Source: Prochloraceae cyanobacterium
Lineage (GTDB): Bacteria > Cyanobacteriota > Cyanobacteriia > Cyanobacteriales > JASJDA01
Assembly: GCA_030065755.1 (NCBI GenBank)
Contig: JASJDA010000063.1
Location: 1 to 48,995 of the forward strand
DNA length: 48,995 bases
Direction of reading: 5' to 3'
Shown here: piece after piece, positions 30,043 to 42,211 of the stretch
How positions within the stretch are numbered: position 1 is the first letter of the stretch
Layout of the letters: the number at the start of each line of letters is the position of its first letter
The notes under the pieces: model-generated
Databases searched by the model: none
What the model was told of the DNA's origin: nothing
What the model saw: only the letters and a program-made list of their open reading frames with translations
Translations under genes and position numbers: made by a program

Positions 30043-33000
30043 ATGCTAACTTTTAAACCAGTAGGTACATTAGCTGGAAATGGTGCGGAAATTCCTGCTT
30101 ACGATCCTATATCTCGACGTTTATTTGTTACTACTGGATCTGGGGTAGATATTCTCGATATTAGCACTCCCAATAATCCCACTAGAATTAGTACTATTGA
30201 TATTTTAGCTCTAGGCGCTGGAGCTAATAGCGTTGCGGTTAAAAATGATATCGTTGCTGTCGCTGTTGAAGCTAATAATAAACAACTTCCTGGTCGAGTT
30301 GGTTTCTTCGATACTAATGGAAATCCACTCGGTTCTCTAACAGTTGGTTCTCTACCAGATATGCTGACCTTTACTTCCGACGGGACTAAGGTTTTAGTAG
30401 CAAATGAAGGGGAACCTAACGACAATTATACAGTGGATCCAGAAGGGTCTGTGAGTATTGTCGATATCTCAGCGGGGGTAGAAAATGTAACTGTTACTAC
30501 TGCGTCTTTTACTGCGTTTAACAATCGCCAACAGGAATTAATCGATAAAGGGGTGCGCATCTTTGGTCCCAATTCTAGCGTAGCCCAAGACCTCGAACCA
30601 GAATATATCGCTGTTTCACCCGATCGTACCACTGCGTTTGTCACCTTACAAGAAAACAACGCTTTTGCTGTAGTAGATATCGACTCCAACAGCAATAATT
30701 TCGGTACTGTTTTAGATATCTTACCTATAGGCTATAAAGACCACAGCCGAGGACAACCTAGTTTAGAACAATTTACCTTTACAAATTTACCAGTCCTGGG
30801 GACAACTGCAACAGTAAACCCAACTAACCCAACTCAAACTACTCCAGGACAGGATATTTTATTAGGGGGTTTGTCGGGACTATTTTATGAAGGAAAGGCA
30901 AATAATGGCAATCTTCAATTTGTTACCATACCCGATCGCGGGCCAAATGGAGAACCCACCGACGTAAATGGGGACGGAAATAAAGAAAGACCCTTTGCTT
31001 TACCAGACTATCAAGCGCGGGTGATTCGTTTCGAGTTAAATGAAACCACTGGTAATATTGAAAATCTCTCTGAAATACTCCTAACTAGGGAAGACGGTAT
31101 AACTCCTATTACGGGTCGTCCCAATAGTCCGAGGTTAGATGAAACGCCCGTAGATTTATTTGGCAATCTTCTACAATACGATCGCTTCGGTGCAGATCTA
31201 GAAGGAGTGGTAGTTGCACCAGACGGAACTTTTTGGATGTCGGACGAATACCGTCCGGCAATCTATCATTTTAATGCCAATGGAGTACTATTAGACCGCT
31301 TTATTCCCAAAGGAACGTCGGGTTTAGCTGCGTTTAGCGAGTTAGTGGTGTTTGGGGACAGTCTCTCCGATACTGGCAATTTATTTAACCTCAGCAACGG
31401 ACAACAACCACCTACACCACCCTATTTCCAGCAAAGAGTTTCTAATGGACCCCTTTGGATCGATCGTATCGCCCCCGAACTAGGTATTAACCTCAACGAC
31501 GTTACTAATTTTGCTATTAGTGGTGCAACTACAGGAACTAGTTATTTTGGCCCGTTAATTCCACCTCCACAGAATGTAGGATTACTCAATCAAATTGACA
31601 GTTATGTTGCTAGTGTTGGTGCAGCTGGTGCAGATCCAGATGCTTTATACTTTGTTTTGGCAGGTTCTAACGATATTTTACTAGCTTTATCTAGTGGAGT
31701 TCGACCGCAAAATGTGGATGTTGTCGGCGCAGTAGACAACCTGGAAACAGCAGTTAACAGATTAGTGGGTTTGGGGGCTACTAATATCGTAATACCCAAT
31801 TCTGTCGATTTGGGTGTAATACCTTTTACCTCAGCTTTCTCTAATGCAGCTACCCAAGTTACCCAAGCTTTCAATGCGGAGCTCAATAGGGCGATCGCTA
31901 CTCTAGAAGCTACCAACCCTGGGTTAAATATTATTCCAGTAGATTCTTTTGGTTTGTCTCAGAATGTTGCAACTAACCCAGGTAACTTTGGTTTTACTAA
32001 TGTCACCGATACCTTAATAACTCAAATTCAACCCCAAAATCCAGAGGGCTTTGCTTTCTGGGATCCCGCTCATCCTACCACTCAATATCACGCTTTAGTT
32101 GCCGAACAATTCCAAAATGCACTGATTAACGAGGGACTTCTCCCCAACTACGGTACGGAAACACTCCCTACAGAATATGCCAATCGCCGACGCAATCGAG
32201 GTTTTGAAGCACTTTCCCTCGATACTAACAATAGTATCCTCTACAGCTTTATTCAAACCCCTCTAGCCAATCCCGATCGCGATACGTCCGACAACTCCCA
32301 GATTATCCGCATGCTGGGTATTAACCCCGCTAACGGCAATCCCGTAGCTGAATATGCTTATGTCTTAGAAGACCCCGACTTTCGCAGTGGCGGACGGGTT
32401 GATAAAATTGCCGATGCTACTTTCGATGCTGCTAATGACGTATTTTACGTCACCGAACGGGATTCTTCTACAGCTTCAAGCGCCAGCAAGTACGTATTTG
32501 CCACAGACTTAAACAATGCTACTAATCTCCTCAATTCCTCCTTCTTCACCTCACAAATAGATAGCGTGCAAGCGGTTCCAACTAATAATTCCACCGCTAC
32601 AGGAGAAGCGGTATTGCGACTTAATGCCGCAGGAGATGCCTTAACTTATAGTATTACCGTTTCTGGATTAGATTTTGGTGCCTATTTCCCCTCACAAACT
32701 CCTCAAACTCCCGATACTGCTGACGACGTTACTCGGATTCATTTCCACAATGCACCGAGGGGCGAAAATGGGAATGTAGTTTTCGGTATTATTAATCCCA
32801 ATCAAGATGACGACGACTTAACATTTACTCTCAACCCCGACGGTTCGACTACTGTTTCTGGAATTTGGGAACAGACAGATATAGCTGCCAGTCAACCCCT
32901 AAGTAATTTTCTCTTCGACCTGCAAAATGCTCGACCCAACATAGATATTCCTCTCTACTTCAATATTCACACCACAGCTTTTCCTGGGGGAGAAATTCGC

Positions 33001-34758
33001 GGACAAATTCAAGGTGCAACTTTAGAACAATTGACCGCTGACAACTTAGCAGATTTAAATGTTAATGCAGCAGACAAGCGCAAAGTTACCAATCTTCCCT
33101 CTCTAGGATATGTAGCAGGAGACAAACCAGAAGGTTTAGCATTAGTAGATGGCAATCGCTTAGCTGTTCTCAACGATAACGACTTCGGTTTACTCGATCG
33201 AGAAATACCCGTTGACGGTACGGTTCCAGTTAATCCCAATCCGACTCCAGTAGTTTTAGGATTAATCGACTTTCCTCCTGGAAATACCCTCGATGCAAGC
33301 AATCGAGATAGTGGAATTAACCTACAAAACTATCCCATCTTCGGAATGTTTCAACCAGACGGGTTCGATTCCTTTGAAATTAATGGCAATACTTATTACA
33401 TCACCGCTAACGAAGGAGATAGCCGCGACTATACTGCTTTTAGCGAAGAAGCGCGCATAGCAGATTTAACCCTAGATCCCCAAGCTTTCCCCAACGCTGC
33501 ACGACTCCAACAAGATGCGGTATTGGGTCGCCTAAAAGTAACCACCACCTTGGGAGATACAGACGGGGATGGAGACTACGATCGATTATTTGCTTATGGC
33601 GGACGATCGTTTACCATCTGGGACGAATCTGGCAATCTAGTCTTCGATGCTGGGGACCAGTTTGAAAGAATTACCGCTCAACAAGTTCCCAATATATTTA
33701 ACTCTAATGGCGCACCCGACACTTTTGACCAACGATCGGACGATAAAGGACCAGAACCAGAAAGCGCAGTAACTGGAGTGATTGGGGCGCGCACCTATGC
33801 TTTCATAGGTTTAGAAAGGATTGGCGGATTTATGGTTTATGACGTAAGTACCCCCACTAATCCCAAATTTGTCGAATATATTCCCTCTAAACAAGGAGAT
33901 ATTTCTCCTGAAGGTCTCAAATATATCCCCCCCAGTGAAAGTCCCAATGGTTCTCCTTTGTTAGTAACTGCTAACGAAGAAAGCAAGACCACCACTATTT
34001 ACGAAATTGACACCCCAACAGAATTGATATTTGGTGGCACTAGGAACGATAATTTTAATGCTGCTGTTCCCAATTCTAATTTCGACGGTGTTAGTGATAT
34101 TGTCTTCACTGGTGCAGGTCAAGATGTTGTCGATAGCAGTGGAGTAATTGAGACTGTCCGCAATCTGTCCAACCGTATCTATACGGGTAGTGGGAACGAT
34201 CGGGCTGCAGTTGGCATAGGGGATCGGGTTTTTGCTGGTGCTGGAAACGATATCTTTGATGCAACTGCAAATAAAGGCAAAAATCGCGTCTATGGTGGAG
34301 ATGGCAAAGATCGATTTTCTGGAGGTAGTGGCGATCGCTTCTTTGGTGGAGGTGGAAACGATACTTTCGATCTCTCTACTGGCACTGGTAACAACCGCGC
34401 TTATGGTAACGAAGGTAACGATATTTTCAGACTCGGTAGTGGCGATCGAGTTATAGGTGCATCTGGCAATGACGAATTTTACGTTCGTACTGGCGGCAAT
34501 AATACTATGACTGGCGGACAAGGTGCCGACCAGTTTTGGATCTTCGATACTCAAGCTCCTAATGCTGTCAATACTGTTACCGATTTTGAAATTGCCCTTG
34601 ACGTTATTGGTTTTGTCGGTAGCGATCGAGGTGCGATCGTCTTCAGAGATGGAGCACGAGGCGCTATTATTGCTCTTAATAATGGCCCCGATCTGGCAGT
34701 TTTCTCAGGTATTGTTGCTAGCGAATTGGAGGCTAATGCTACTTTAGTTTTTTTCTAG
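30043..34758 (+). CDS. Giant multidomain secreted protein: choice-of-anchor I, phytase-like, GDSL and CHRD domains with RTX-like C-terminus
   Basis: A 1571-aa protein with nested domains. Residues 1-230 and about 1100-1320 are the two halves of a choice-of-anchor I beta-propeller (ANEGEPND early, ANEGDSRDY late). Between them is an esterase-like phytase domain (about 275-432, 700-835, 990-1080). This is itself interrupted by a GDSL hydrolase (about 433-700; Ser440 in FGDSLSD, GSND 541-544, Asp674 and His677 in DPAH) and by a CHRD domain (about 838-990, HFHNAPRGENG, GGEIRGQI). The C-terminal 245 aa contain Gly/Asn/Asp repeats (GGGGNDTFD, GGQGADQF) like haemolysin-type calcium-binding proteins, which suggests type I secretion; no Sec signal peptide is seen. 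A terminator follows. Domain borders are approximate. Confidence 0.85.
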   Translation: MLTFKPVGTLAGNGAEIPAYDPISRRLFVTTGSGVDILDISTPNNPTRISTIDILALGAGANSVAVKNDIVAVAVEANNKQLPGRVGFFDTNGNPLGSLTVGSLPDMLTFTSDGTKVLVANEGEPNDNYTVDPEGSVSIVDISAGVENVTVTTASFTAFNNRQQELIDKGVRIFGPNSSVAQDLEPEYIAVSPDRTTAFVTLQENNAFAVVDIDSNSNNFGTVLDILPIGYKDHSRGQPSLEQFTFTNLPVLGTTATVNPTNPTQTTPGQDILLGGLSGLFYEGKANNGNLQFVTIPDRGPNGEPTDVNGDGNKERPFALPDYQARVIRFELNETTGNIENLSEILLTREDGITPITGRPNSPRLDETPVDLFGNLLQYDRFGADLEGVVVAPDGTFWMSDEYRPAIYHFNANGVLLDRFIPKGTSGLAAFSELVVFGDSLSDTGNLFNLSNGQQPPTPPYFQQRVSNGPLWIDRIAPELGINLNDVTNFAISGATTGTSYFGPLIPPPQNVGLLNQIDSYVASVGAAGADPDALYFVLAGSNDILLALSSGVRPQNVDVVGAVDNLETAVNRLVGLGATNIVIPNSVDLGVIPFTSAFSNAATQVTQAFNAELNRAIATLEATNPGLNIIPVDSFGLSQNVATNPGNFGFTNVTDTLITQIQPQNPEGFAFWDPAHPTTQYHALVAEQFQNALINEGLLPNYGTETLPTEYANRRRNRGFEALSLDTNNSILYSFIQTPLANPDRDTSDNSQIIRMLGINPANGNPVAEYAYVLEDPDFRSGGRVDKIADATFDAANDVFYVTERDSSTASSASKYVFATDLNNATNLLNSSFFTSQIDSVQAVPTNNSTATGEAVLRLNAAGDALTYSITVSGLDFGAYFPSQTPQTPDTADDVTRIHFHNAPRGENGNVVFGIINPNQDDDDLTFTLNPDGSTTVSGIWEQTDIAASQPLSNFLFDLQNARPNIDIPLYFNIHTTAFPGGEIRGQIQGATLEQLTADNLADLNVNAADKRKVTNLPSLGYVAGDKPEGLALVDGNRLAVLNDNDFGLLDREIPVDGTVPVNPNPTPVVLGLIDFPPGNTLDASNRDSGINLQNYPIFGMFQPDGFDSFEINGNTYYITANEGDSRDYTAFSEEARIADLTLDPQAFPNAARLQQDAVLGRLKVTTTLGDTDGDGDYDRLFAYGGRSFTIWDESGNLVFDAGDQFERITAQQVPNIFNSNGAPDTFDQRSDDKGPEPESAVTGVIGARTYAFIGLERIGGFMVYDVSTPTNPKFVEYIPSKQGDISPEGLKYIPPSESPNGSPLLVTANEESKTTTIYEIDTPTELIFGGTRNDNFNAAVPNSNFDGVSDIVFTGAGQDVVDSSGVIETVRNLSNRIYTGSGNDRAAVGIGDRVFAGAGNDIFDATANKGKNRVYGGDGKDRFSGGSGDRFFGGGGNDTFDLSTGTGNNRAYGNEGNDIFRLGSGDRVIGASGNDEFYVRTGGNNTMTGGQGADQFWIFDTQAPNAVNTVTDFEIALDVIGFVGSDRGAIVFRDGARGAIIALNNGPDLAVFSGIVASELEANATLVFF

Positions 34759-37926: not shown

Positions 37927-39942
37927 TTATAGTTCGTCTGCTGTGATATTAACACTAACAAATCCTGCCTTGTCAATTAGTTTTTGAGCCTCAGGTGTCA
38001 GCAACAATTGTGCATACGCAAAACCAGCTTTCTCATCTTCTCGACCGTCTTTTTTTACTATTACAAATAATCTTTGAGTCAGAGGATATTCTCCGCTGCG
38101 AAAAGCTGATTTATTGAGTTGATTGTGCTTTTTAGCACATTGAGAAGCAGGTATCAAAGGTTCTTGATAGGGAGAAACAAAACGATCTGCATAGCGACCA
38201 ACTGGCAGAGCGCGGACGGTACATTGATGTACTATATTGATAGCCCTACCGAAATATATTCCTCCTGGATCTTTTGCTACTTTTCTGATACCTGTGGTGG
38301 TATTTGGAACTTTCACCACATTATCTCCAAAATTCTCACCTTTTAAAATGTTTTTTATAAAAAAATTAATATCGTCCTCTCCTCCTGGATTGCGAGAATA
38401 AGCAACTAGAGGTAAATCTGGTCCTCCAATTTGTTTCCAGTTAGAGATTTTGCCAGTGTAAATATCTTTTAGCTCATCTAAAGTTATACCAGCAATAGGT
38501 AAGGAATGATTAGCGGCGATCGCAATTCCGTCAATAGCTACTAGTTTTTCTTCAAGGGTATAACCGAGTCTATTAGCTTTCTCATATTCTTCTTCTTTGA
38601 GAGGACGAGAGGATTGAGAAAATGAGAGGCGATTTTCTAACAACATTTTGATGCCAGTATCAGAATTTCGATCGCGACTAATTGGCTCAGTGTAGCGCAA
38701 TTCAAAGTTGGGCGAGAATAAGTTAATTGCTGGGTCTATTGTTGTGCGGATGGATGTCCAAGTGCTGCTACTACTATAGTTAAACACTCCTGAAGGAAAA
38801 TCTTCCTTATTAAAACTAAGAATTCTATTGTTTTCCTGGATATTGTTGGCAGGGATTTTTGACTGATATAGAGCGTTGTATGTATTGAAACCTAAAATTT
38901 TTAGACCAATTACAGTCGCGATCGCTGCTAAAACTTTGAACGATACTTTTATCTTGCTCGAACTGCTCTTATCGATCGATTCGAGGAAAACATTAGACTG
39001 AGAAGTATTTTTCTTAATAGAGGATTTTAGTTTAACTGAAGAGGTCGTTCCTAAAACCAGAGGTTCTAAGTCTTCTATCACTTGTTCAGCTGTTTGATAA
39101 CGCCGATCTATATCTTTTTGAATTAGCTTGTCTACGATGGCAGTTAATTCACGACTCAGTGGTTTTTTAAGGTAATCTTGCCAATTTTTGACCCAATGAT
39201 AACCTCCATATACCCATAACTTAAAGGGATTAATTCCGGTCATTAGGTGAAAACAAGTAGCTCCCAAACTGTATAAATCGCTGGCAGTAGTTGCTTTTCC
39301 GTGTAATAATTGTTCGGGAGATGCGTAACCTTGAGAACCTAAACTAGTTCCTGTCTGAATTAATGATGAGGTTATCGTTTTTGATATTCCAAAATCAATT
39401 AGTACGTATTTATTCTCCTCCGCACAATACATAATATTGCTTAGTTTGATGTCCCGATGAATTATATTGTTAGAGTGGATAAATTTCAAAATTTGCAATA
39501 TATCTATTAAGAGTTCTTTAATTTGAGTTTCCCTAAATAAGCCTTCTTGCTTCAATTTTTCATGTAGGTTTTCACCTTTAATAAACTGCTGTACTAAATA
39601 AAGATAACTATTTTCTTCAAAATAAGCTAAAAGCATGGGAATTTGAGGATGTTCGCCCAATAATTGCAATTGCTTGGCTTCTTGCTTGAATAAAGCCTTT
39701 GCTTTGTCATTTTCCTCATTGTTCTGCTCGTTAAATACTAACTGCTTGACTACGCACAGCTCGTCAAGTTTATCTTTGTCTTGTGCTAAGTAAGTTTTCC
39801 CAAAACCACCTCTGCCAATTGTGTCAAGAACTTTGTAATGGTTTCTCAGGCGATCTTGTAAGATTCTCCCGCATTGCTGGCAATGGAGCTGATTGTCAGA
39901 GTTAACTGGTTGTTGACAGTTGGGGTTTAAACAATAAATCAT
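37927..39942 (-). CDS. Transmembrane Ser/Thr kinase fused to a PstS-like phosphate-binding domain
   Basis: A 671-aa fusion. Residues 1-25 form a four-Cys zinc-ribbon (Cys4, Cys9, Cys21, Cys24). A Hanks-type kinase follows (36-295): G-loop GRGGFGKTY, Lys66, HRDIKLSN (162-169), DFG (183-185). A single TM helix lies at about 333-352. The C-terminal 290 aa resemble PstS-like substrate-binding proteins (TGKISNWKQIGGPDLPLVAYSR, then GGEDDINFFIKNIL). With the kinase inside, the binding domain would face the periplasm or lumen and could act as a ligand sensor. The downstream target is unknown. Key catalytic residues are all present. Confidence 0.9.
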   Translation of the reverse strand: MIYCLNPNCQQPVNSDNQLHCQQCGRILQDRLRNHYKVLDTIGRGGFGKTYLAQDKDKLDELCVVKQLVFNEQNNEENDKAKALFKQEAKQLQLLGEHPQIPMLLAYFEENSYLYLVQQFIKGENLHEKLKQEGLFRETQIKELLIDILQILKFIHSNNIIHRDIKLSNIMYCAEENKYVLIDFGISKTITSSLIQTGTSLGSQGYASPEQLLHGKATTASDLYSLGATCFHLMTGINPFKLWVYGGYHWVKNWQDYLKKPLSRELTAIVDKLIQKDIDRRYQTAEQVIEDLEPLVLGTTSSVKLKSSIKKNTSQSNVFLESIDKSSSSKIKVSFKVLAAIATVIGLKILGFNTYNALYQSKIPANNIQENNRILSFNKEDFPSGVFNYSSSSTWTSIRTTIDPAINLFSPNFELRYTEPISRDRNSDTGIKMLLENRLSFSQSSRPLKEEEYEKANRLGYTLEEKLVAIDGIAIAANHSLPIAGITLDELKDIYTGKISNWKQIGGPDLPLVAYSRNPGGEDDINFFIKNILKGENFGDNVVKVPNTTTGIRKVAKDPGGIYFGRAINIVHQCTVRALPVGRYADRFVSPYQEPLIPASQCAKKHNQLNKSAFRSGEYPLTQRLFVIVKKDGREDEKAGFAYAQLLLTPEAQKLIDKAGFVSVNITADEL

Positions 39943-40525: not shown

Positions 40526-40705
40526 TCAACTATCAGTTGATGAGATTTTGGGCACAGCGCTGTTTTTATCAATTTCTACAATCGGTAGCGAGTCAATAAA
40601 ATCTTCAATAATACTGGTAATTGTCTTATCCTTATGAGCTGCGTACATTCGTAACTTATCCGAACGTCTCTTGCTTAATCTAACTCTTATATAATGCGAT
40701 TTCAT
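40526..40705 (-). CDS. Ribbon-helix-helix-like accessory protein of the tnpB element
   Basis: A 59-aa basic protein starting MKSHYIRVRLSKRRSDKLR and continuing KDKTITSIIEDFIDSLP. The pattern (short strand IRVRLS, helix, then TITSIIEDFID helix) fits a CopG/Arc-type ribbon-helix-helix DNA-binding protein. I recall similar short proteins placed divergently upstream of cyanobacterial tnpB genes. The gap to tnpB is 60 nt and contains a perfect palindrome (40729-40749) that could be its operator. Its stop codon lies in the large left-end hairpin. Confidence 0.7.
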   Translation of the reverse strand: MKSHYIRVRLSKRRSDKLRMYAAHKDKTITSIIEDFIDSLPIVEIDKNSAVPKISSTDS

Positions 40706-40728
40706 TTACTTGACTATTCTTATTTAAC

Positions 40729-40749
40729 TGTGATAATATTATTATCACA
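40729..40749. promoter_or_regulatory. Palindromic operator candidate between the RHH gene and tnpB
   Basis: A perfect inverted repeat TGTGATAAT-att-ATTATCACA, 23 nt from the RHH start and 16 nt from the tnpB ATG. Divergent position and symmetry fit autoregulation by the dimeric RHH protein. Binding is inferred, not shown. Confidence 0.5.
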
Positions 40750-40765
40750 TAAAAATCAATTGTTA

Positions 40766-42211
40766 ATGCTGCTTAACTATCAATATCGAGCCTATCCAGA
40801 AACGGCACAAAAATTAAAATTAAATAATTGGCTAAGGATATGTCGCTATTGGTATAACTATCAAATTGGCGATCGGTTTGATTGGTGGCAATTCAATCGT
40901 AGTAGTATTAATGCTTGTCCATTAACTTGTTCGATAAGAGGTTTAAAAAACAGACCAGATTATTATTCTCAAAAGAAACAATTACCAATTTTAAAGAAAA
41001 ATTTGCTCAAAGTAAGTCATTCTGGAGAGTTGCTTGATTTTGCTGATGTACCTTCTCAAACTTTACAAGACGTATCAAAGCGAGCCGCTCTAGCTTTTCA
41101 ACGTTTTATTCGAGGTGATAAAAACGGAAAAAGAAGCGGTAAACCTCGGTTTAAAAATACAGCTCGCTATCGTACTATGAAGTTTGAAAGTAATGCTATA
41201 GCCATCAAACAAGTAACAAAGAAGTGGTTATTCTTGTCTGTTTCTAAACTCGATCGTTTGTTGAGAGTGCGTTTACATCGTCCATTACCTAATGGGTTCA
41301 AACTTAAAAATGCAATGATTAGTAAAAAAGCTGATGGATGGTATGTAACCCTTTGCCTTGAAGATAAAACAGTACCACATTTTATTCCAGATGAAATAGA
41401 ACCAACTTGGGATAATTCTATTGGTATGGATGCTGTTTTACATGAAAATGATTATTTAGCTACGTCAGATGGTATTAAGTTACCATCGTTAAAATCTTTC
41501 AGATTTTCTGAAAACAAATTAGCTAAAGTAGCTAATCGTAAGTCATCTAAAAAGAAAGGGAGTAAAGCACGTCGCAAATTAGCTCATAGTGAGGCTAAGA
41601 TTCATCAGCGTATTGCTCGTTCTCGTCGCGACCATGCATTTAAAACAGCTCATGCACTCGTAAACACAGGTAAAAAAGTATTTATACGGGAAGATTTAAA
41701 CTTAAAAAGTTTATCAAAACGAAATAAAGCTAAGCAAGACGAAAAAGGGAATTACTTACCTAACGGACAATCAACACGATCGGGTTTAAACAAGTCTTGG
41801 TTAGATGCTGCATTTGGGCAGTTTTTTGAAGTTCTAGAATACATAGCCGAAAAAGCGCACCGCCCGCGCCGAGGTTTCCTCGGCGTAAGGACGGAGCAAG
41901 AAGCTGGAGCTAGAATTATGGCTGTTAAACCTGCATATACATCCCAGTTACTCTCATATCGAGATGATTTTGTCTTTACTGATTGCGATATTCGAGAGTA
42001 TTGGGACGATCGAGAATGGCTTTATATTGACCGTGATATCAACGCGGCAATAAATATAAAGCGCGTGGGGCTGGGACTGTTCCCCACGATAAAACGCCGT
42101 AAAGGGAATCGAGTAGTAAAAGCTTCTACTACTAATAGTACCTCTAAGGAAGTTCTTGATATCCTTCGAGGATGTCAGAAGCCTACACTGTATGCGCAAG
42201 CATCAGTGTAG
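40766..42211 (+). CDS. tnpB: TnpB, RuvC-like RNA-guided endonuclease of an IS605-family element
   Basis: A 481-aa protein starting MLLNYQYRAYPETAQ, the canonical TnpB N-terminus; an in-frame ATG at 40694 would add 24 atypical residues. RuvC acidic residues are present: Asp222 (IGMD), Glu309 (IREDLN), Asp424 (DRDINAAIN). The usual four-Cys zinc finger before DRD is missing; the segment TSQLLSYRDDFVFTDCDIREYW has one Cys, as I recall for a cyanobacterial subgroup. Sixteen residues (365-380, HRPRRGFLGVRTEQEA) are an in-frame palindromic insertion splitting the expected KAGARIMAVKP. No stop or frameshift, but activity could be impaired. Confidence 0.9.
   Translation: MLLNYQYRAYPETAQKLKLNNWLRICRYWYNYQIGDRFDWWQFNRSSINACPLTCSIRGLKNRPDYYSQKKQLPILKKNLLKVSHSGELLDFADVPSQTLQDVSKRAALAFQRFIRGDKNGKRSGKPRFKNTARYRTMKFESNAIAIKQVTKKWLFLSVSKLDRLLRVRLHRPLPNGFKLKNAMISKKADGWYVTLCLEDKTVPHFIPDEIEPTWDNSIGMDAVLHENDYLATSDGIKLPSLKSFRFSENKLAKVANRKSSKKKGSKARRKLAHSEAKIHQRIARSRRDHAFKTAHALVNTGKKVFIREDLNLKSLSKRNKAKQDEKGNYLPNGQSTRSGLNKSWLDAAFGQFFEVLEYIAEKAHRPRRGFLGVRTEQEAGARIMAVKPAYTSQLLSYRDDFVFTDCDIREYWDDREWLYIDRDINAAINIKRVGLGLFPTIKRRKGNRVVKASTTNSTSKEVLDILRGCQKPTLYAQASV
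41858..41905 (+). repeat. In-frame 48-nt palindromic insertion in tnpB
   Basis: The insertion contains hairpin GCCGAGG-ttt-CCTCGGC, flanked by CGCCCGC before and GTAAGGACGG after. Removing it restores ...EKAGARIMAVKP, the usual TnpB sequence. GC content is far above its surroundings. A related repeat lies at 47584-47627. Confidence 0.8.

Follow-up and report, generated by a model that had tools for sequence, protein, structure and literature searches.

A receptor-like Ser/Thr kinase with a PstS-fold ectodomain and an acidic oxyanion loop in a Prochloraceae cyanobacterium

The window, a contig stretch of 48,995 nucleotides from a Prochloraceae cyanobacterium, encodes a single-pass receptor-like Ser/Thr kinase in which an active-looking kinase is joined to a PstS-fold Venus flytrap predicted to be periplasmic. 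This architecture is real, and the combination of a kinase with a transmembrane (TM)-anchored PstS-like domain is recurrent in cyanobacteria and apparently undescribed. The reading we favour, with a probability of roughly 0.6, is that the protein is a receptor-like kinase of this recurrent design whose ectodomain binds something other than an oxyanion, or is the ligand-less partner of two sister receptors that this genome also encodes.

The gene occupies positions 37927-39942 of the minus strand, on which all features described below lie, and its open reading frame starts with ATG, has no internal stops and encodes 671 amino acids. The domain order, a zinc ribbon, a Hanks kinase, a TM helix and a PstS-like domain, had been given together with these coordinates in a first-pass annotation made from the sequence, and the reading frame, Pfam and NCBIfam all agree with it. 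The predicted zinc ribbon (residues 3-25, with C4, C9, C21 and C24; 39868-39936) matches the NCBIfam four-cysteine prefix model NF045510 with 34.1 bits against a cut-off of 24, which places the protein among the 4-Cys-prefix kinases of cyanobacteria. The Hanks-type Ser/Thr kinase domain (residues 31-292; 39067-39852) is matched by Pfam Pkinase (PF00069) at residues 36-289 with an E-value of 5.7e-45, which passes the curated cut-off. It has the Pkinase fold and the catalytic Lys, HRD and DFG of Hanks kinases, and appears complete, with intact motifs at GRGGFG (43-48), Lys66 in VVK, HRDIKLSN (162-169), DFG (183-185) and SPEQ (208-211). A K/S-rich, presumably cytoplasmic linker (residues 293-332; 38947-39066), recognised by low pLDDT in the full-length model and by its charge count, leads into the one TM helix that the annotation had counted (residues ~333-353; 38884-38946), which has a hydropathy peak of 1.87 with every other segment of the protein at or below 1.6. 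On the N side of this helix there are seven K+R and two D+E, a positive-inside balance that predicts a kinase inside and a C-terminal PstS-like domain outside. The same balance supports the periplasmic placement proposed for the PstS-like domain, as does a pair of cysteines, Cys574 (38221-38223) and Cys602 (38137-38139), invariant in the close family, which may form a disulfide in an oxidising compartment. The layout is that of a receptor-like kinase, with one TM helix, the sensor outside and the kinase inside, the orientation being read from the sequence.

The ectodomain (residues 384-667; 37942-38793) is matched by PBP_like_2 (PF12849) at residues 423-649 with an E-value of 3e-21, above the curated cut-off, and by the NCBIfam PstS-family model TIGR02136 at residues 427-663 (E 1.2e-32), where its 113.3 bits fall below the curated subfamily cut-off of 206.6 bits. 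An AF2 model of this SBP domain, built from an alignment with 73 relatives, has a mean pLDDT of 94.6 and a pTM of 0.90. Its top Foldseek match is 9l8j, the 'putative phosphate binding protein' Sll0540 of Synechocystis, followed by the phosphate-bound PstS of Clostridium perfringens (4gd5), and VIA-align superposes 241 residues on Vibrio cholerae PstS (1twy_A) with a Z of 26.9 and an rmsd of 1.7. PstS or phosphate-binding proteins fill the first ~35 PDB rows from Foldseek and the first 30 from VIA. TupA, FutA, OxyR and similar proteins stand lower in these lists and are taken to reflect the wider superfamily only. From the model and its VIA matches, the domain is predicted to adopt the periplasmic-binding-protein fold of PstS. 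Chance or artefact as the source of the SBP assignment is ruled out by the fold and profile evidence. The full-length model (pTM 0.52) is sound over the SBP and the greater part of the kinase; its linker and TM helix have pLDDT below 50, and neither TM nor inter-domain geometry is confident.

The SBP belongs to a family of cyanobacterial TM-anchored PstS-like proteins, most of them standalone and about 350 amino acids long. Of the 388 genomes sampled, 153 have a match at E<=1e-50, and these cover 78 of 160 genera. Among 57 loci from named genomes with at least 2 kb of upstream sequence, a Ser/Thr kinase gene lies upstream of the standalone TM-SBP gene on the same strand in 29, often within 130 bp, a count of mutually related loci that differs from a count of independent events. 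All 32 nearby kinases are encoded upstream, on the strand of the TM-SBP gene, and no kinase was found downstream of a standalone TM-SBP in 58 loci. The paired loci span Nostocales, Leptolyngbya-type and other cyanobacteria. In several operons the kinase and TM-PstS genes flank a gene for a TM-anchored protein resembling Peripla_BP_6/ANF receptors (L071:2325-3746, tested with Pfam, L081:2261-3709, L086:2286-3716 and L145:2325-3737), and more than one tethered sensor may serve the kinase there. An ANF-like gene follows the kinase/SBP pair in L064, L067, L070, L094, L123 and L129. The reverse of the usual order is seen at L045:2404-5849 in the window genome, where a TM-SBP gene is directly followed by one encoding a kinase-DUF6174-FGE-sulfatase protein.

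Kinase-TM-SBP fusions are found in three copies in the window genome and also in a genus mate, Leptothoe, Leptolyngbya, a MAG of the Synechococcales and two other genomes. Two of the three copies are sisters of the window protein, 60% and 55% identical to it over nearly the full length, and a further sister occurs in the same genus. In the kinase tree the fusions fall in about four separate places. In the SBP tree the four Prochloraceae fusions group together (100/98) beside standalone TM-SBPs of the same order, and the kinase-fusion label needs at least four changes over the whole tree; L120, a fusion on a long branch, is of unsure placement. The trees suggest that about four kinase lineages gave rise to such fusions. 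These repeated fusions and the kinase/SBP gene pairs, along with the single TM helix, bear out the likeness to receptor kinases that the first-pass annotation had pointed to.

The TM-SBP is also joined to other modules. PBP_like_2 occurs at 20 places in the window genome, about 15 of them of the TM-PstS family, in which the TM-SBP follows TPR (L002, L009, L046), CHAT (L006/L148, L147, L044) or other and short N-termini. In the genus mate (G001) it follows a Peptidase_C14 caspase domain (L053, L054) or TPR-like repeats (L055, L056), and the two caspase genes (L053:2175-4511 and L054:1092-3974) encode Peptidase_C14, TM and PstS-like ectodomain in the manner of receptor-like caspases. CHAT fusions are present elsewhere too (L143, L128); those in L006, L044, L128 and L143 were tested with Pfam. 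In two further TM-SBPs (L112:3224-4864 and L113:3182-4849) the N-terminal domain resembles a receiver on inspection by eye but has no Pfam match. The kinases of the window clade in turn have alternative C-termini, either WD40-like (by eye) or FGE-sulfatase, and with TM-SBPs behind such varied effectors this indicates that both halves are freely swapped. The presence of the same TM-SBP behind kinase, CHAT, caspase and TPR modules within one genus makes it look like a plug-in extracytoplasmic sensor.

The ligand pocket was mapped by motif alignment to the Escherichia coli PstS sequence, in which we take T10, S38, D56, R135 and S139-G140-T141 to be the phosphate ligands. The window protein has motif counterparts at S393 (T10), S427 (S38) and R517 (R135). 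The D56 position is occupied by S445, followed by R446, and Ser-Arg is also found there in most of the SBP family and in C. perfringens PstS. Two loops differ. In loop 1 (residues 389-395; 38758-38778) the family sequence YGGSTTW is replaced by YSSSSTW, so that two near-invariant glycines, kept in all 19 close relatives and in 65 and 66 of 66 wider ones, have become Ser390 and Ser391. The counterpart of S139-G140-T141 is E522-D523-D524, at the end of the oxyanion loop region R517-D524 (RNPGGEDD; 38371-38394), where the fused sisters have GGT (C180 of the window genome and the same-genus copy) or EGT (C291, also of the window genome) and most close relatives have (G/S)GT. In the full-length model, helix 523-532 has the altered loop at its N-terminus. 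In PstS, backbone NH groups at such a helix N-terminus are offered to the anion, and acidic residues at this site therefore speak against a bound oxyanion. At the position of residue 523, Asp is also present in about seven wider relatives, with the Thr mostly kept; given this precedent an acidic oxyanion loop may be tolerated, and an anion could still be held by the retained R517, S427 and S445/R446. Distant family members lack the SGT loop. Overall the window SBP departs from the consensus at 10 of 79 conserved columns, more than any other member of the close set. The assembly is a draft of 455 contigs, and a local error may affect the oxyanion loop region.

The genes around the kinase gene encode MgtE, an IS605 OrfB-type protein, a HIBADH-like dehydrogenase, a CobO-type protein and a sigma factor; there are no pst or pho genes among these neighbours, nor does the gene lie next to pstCAB transporter genes. 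The IS605 OrfB/TnpB-like gene (40694-42211) lies on the upstream side of the kinase gene and is encoded by the other strand. Elsewhere in the window, positions 30043-34758 encode a 1571-amino-acid protein that combines choice-of-anchor I, phytase-like, GDSL lipase, CHRD and RTX-type repeat regions. A Pho-box search upstream of the window gene and 12 related genes gave no excess over shuffled sequence, the sole weak case (L142, p 0.03) being expected by chance among 13.

These results bear directly on the proposal of the first-pass annotation that the protein senses phosphate or another oxyanion. As a direct receptor for phosphate (or arsenate or sulfate), the ectodomain would bind Pi like PstS and report Pi status to cytoplasmic targets. 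The fold, the phosphate-binding proteins at the head of the structure matches, the retained R517, S427 and S445/R446 positions and the GT kept in the oxyanion loops of the sisters and most relatives all speak for such a role, but the replacement of GGT by EDD and of GG by SS in two pocket loops, an upstream Pho-box-like repeat no better than shuffled sequence and the lack of pst or pho neighbours speak against it, and we consider it unlikely. The annotation had named absence of the PstS pocket residues as one observation that would count against its proposal; the absence is partial, comprising the SGT loop and the two loop-1 glycines, and the PstS fold and the remaining anion-contacting positions stand. 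Direct phosphate sensing by the window copy is therefore weakly supported, and would be more plausible for the sister receptors. The many deviating columns could instead mark a decaying paralogue with an ectodomain on the way to loss, but the full-length frame, the intact kinase motifs, the confident fold and a dN/dS of about 0.3 in both halves make this very improbable. To the nearest sister, dN/dS is ~0.26 in the kinase half and ~0.33 in the SBP half, which shows that both halves are under purifying selection and that the SBP is still constrained; with the intact frame, it rules out a pseudogene. Relative to the same-genus outgroup it is the SBP, not the kinase, that is faster in the window lineage (dN 0.357 against 0.245 in its sister for the SBP; an equal 0.295 and 0.299 for the kinase). 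Taken together, dN/dS and relative rates indicate an SBP that has changed rather than decayed.

Two other explanations turn on the company that the TM-SBP keeps. It might be a protein-interaction or cell-envelope anchor without a small ligand, a scaffold behind kinases, CHAT, caspase and TPR modules; the unlike cytoplasmic modules to which it is joined and the loss of the SGT loop in distant members suit this idea, which is nevertheless doubtful since a pure scaffold would not need the PstS-like pocket that most members keep. The fusions to CHAT and Peptidase_C14 within the genus could also point to a network of biological conflict or cell death, in which a single surface sensor of attack by phages or competitors serves kinase, CHAT and caspase effectors alike. 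Actinobacterial membrane-linked caspase systems have TM+PBP domains (PMC7159879), and the kinase half is matched by PADLOC models of the PD-T4-6 kinase. The PADLOC evidence concerns mainly the kinase half, however: the best model (5.7e-104) covers residues 1-307 only, and dozens of different kinase models match at once. The window gene also lies outside any defence island, and the standalone relatives adjoin kinases. We regard a conflict role as quite improbable.

Several known systems resemble parts of this design. The window domain shares its fold, and the greater part of the pocket scaffold, with PstS and PBP_like_2 proteins (4gd5, 1twy, 9l8j), but it is the C-terminal, TM-anchored part of a kinase without ABC-transporter genes beside it, has EDD in place of SGT and an invariant Cys pair, and scores below the TIGR02136 cut-off. 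PASTA kinases (PknB/Stk1/StkP) likewise have a cytoplasmic Hanks kinase, one TM helix and an extracytoplasmic sensor, whereas the window ectodomain is a Venus flytrap; Pfam finds no PASTA repeats, and NF033483 matches the kinase part only, with 166 of the 450 bits required. In the GlnH-GlnX-PknG route of Actinobacteria an SBP is proposed to report a periplasmic nutrient to a Ser/Thr kinase (PMC6069109, PMC9769921), which indicates that an SBP can be linked to such a kinase (PMC6069109). That route uses three separate proteins and an amino-acid ligand, namely a GlnH lipoprotein, the TM protein GlnX and PknG with TPR, whereas in the window protein, which has no TPR in the Pfam scan, sensor and kinase form one polypeptide (two adjacent genes in relatives) with a PstS-like SBP. 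Krupa and Srinivasan (2005), in their section on such proteins, describe a Streptomyces coelicolor kinase with a Glu/Gln-type SBP and a Nostoc 7120 kinase with an ANF receptor; these too unite a kinase with a periplasmic binding domain, from other binding-protein families, and that section names no PstS-type case (PMC1262709). TM+PBP is known from the System 4 caspases of actinobacteria (PMC7159879), and PBP_like_2 from 1 of 473 cyanobacterial orthocaspases (PMC8283722); both share the effector, TM and binding-protein design of the genus mate's caspase fusions, with a kinase as effector in the window protein. A literature search found no kinase-PstS receptor, description of a four-cysteine kinase or kinase/TM-PstS pair in cyanobacteria, though its PBP_like_2 wording may miss papers and others may exist.

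Under the favoured reading of a receptor-like kinase with a non-oxyanion or absent ligand, the zinc ribbon and kinase would lie in the cytoplasm and the PstS-fold Venus flytrap in the periplasm. As in other receptor kinases, binding outside would be passed across the membrane to the kinase. Closure of the SBP on its ligand, or binding of a partner, would alter the arrangement of TM helices and with it the autophosphorylation and output of the kinase. For most family members the ligand would probably be an oxyanion such as phosphate. For the window copy the oxyanion loop has turned acidic, and it would therefore most likely bind another ligand or act as a ligand-less partner of the two sister receptors. 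A broader and more tentative idea, which we hold to be possible without favouring it, is that the TM-tethered PstS-like domain is a common plug-in sensor of cyanobacteria for kinases, CHAT/caspase proteases and TPR scaffolds, expanded to about 15 receptors per genome in this genus, and that some of these, such as the window copy, have moved from oxyanions to new ligands.

To our knowledge, activating signals have been identified for few bacterial Ser/Thr kinases. A PstS-type ectodomain that has been fused to kinases several times independently, and that about half of the relatives examined encode next to a kinase gene, is a concrete candidate class of input for cyanobacterial kinases, and the contrast of EDD with GGT among sister receptors makes its ligand dependence directly testable. 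It is possibly a second route of phosphate or nutrient sensing besides two-component systems of the PhoBR/SphSR type. Through its fusion to caspase and CHAT proteases, the same sensor would couple controlled proteolysis to the sensing of nutrients or of the envelope.
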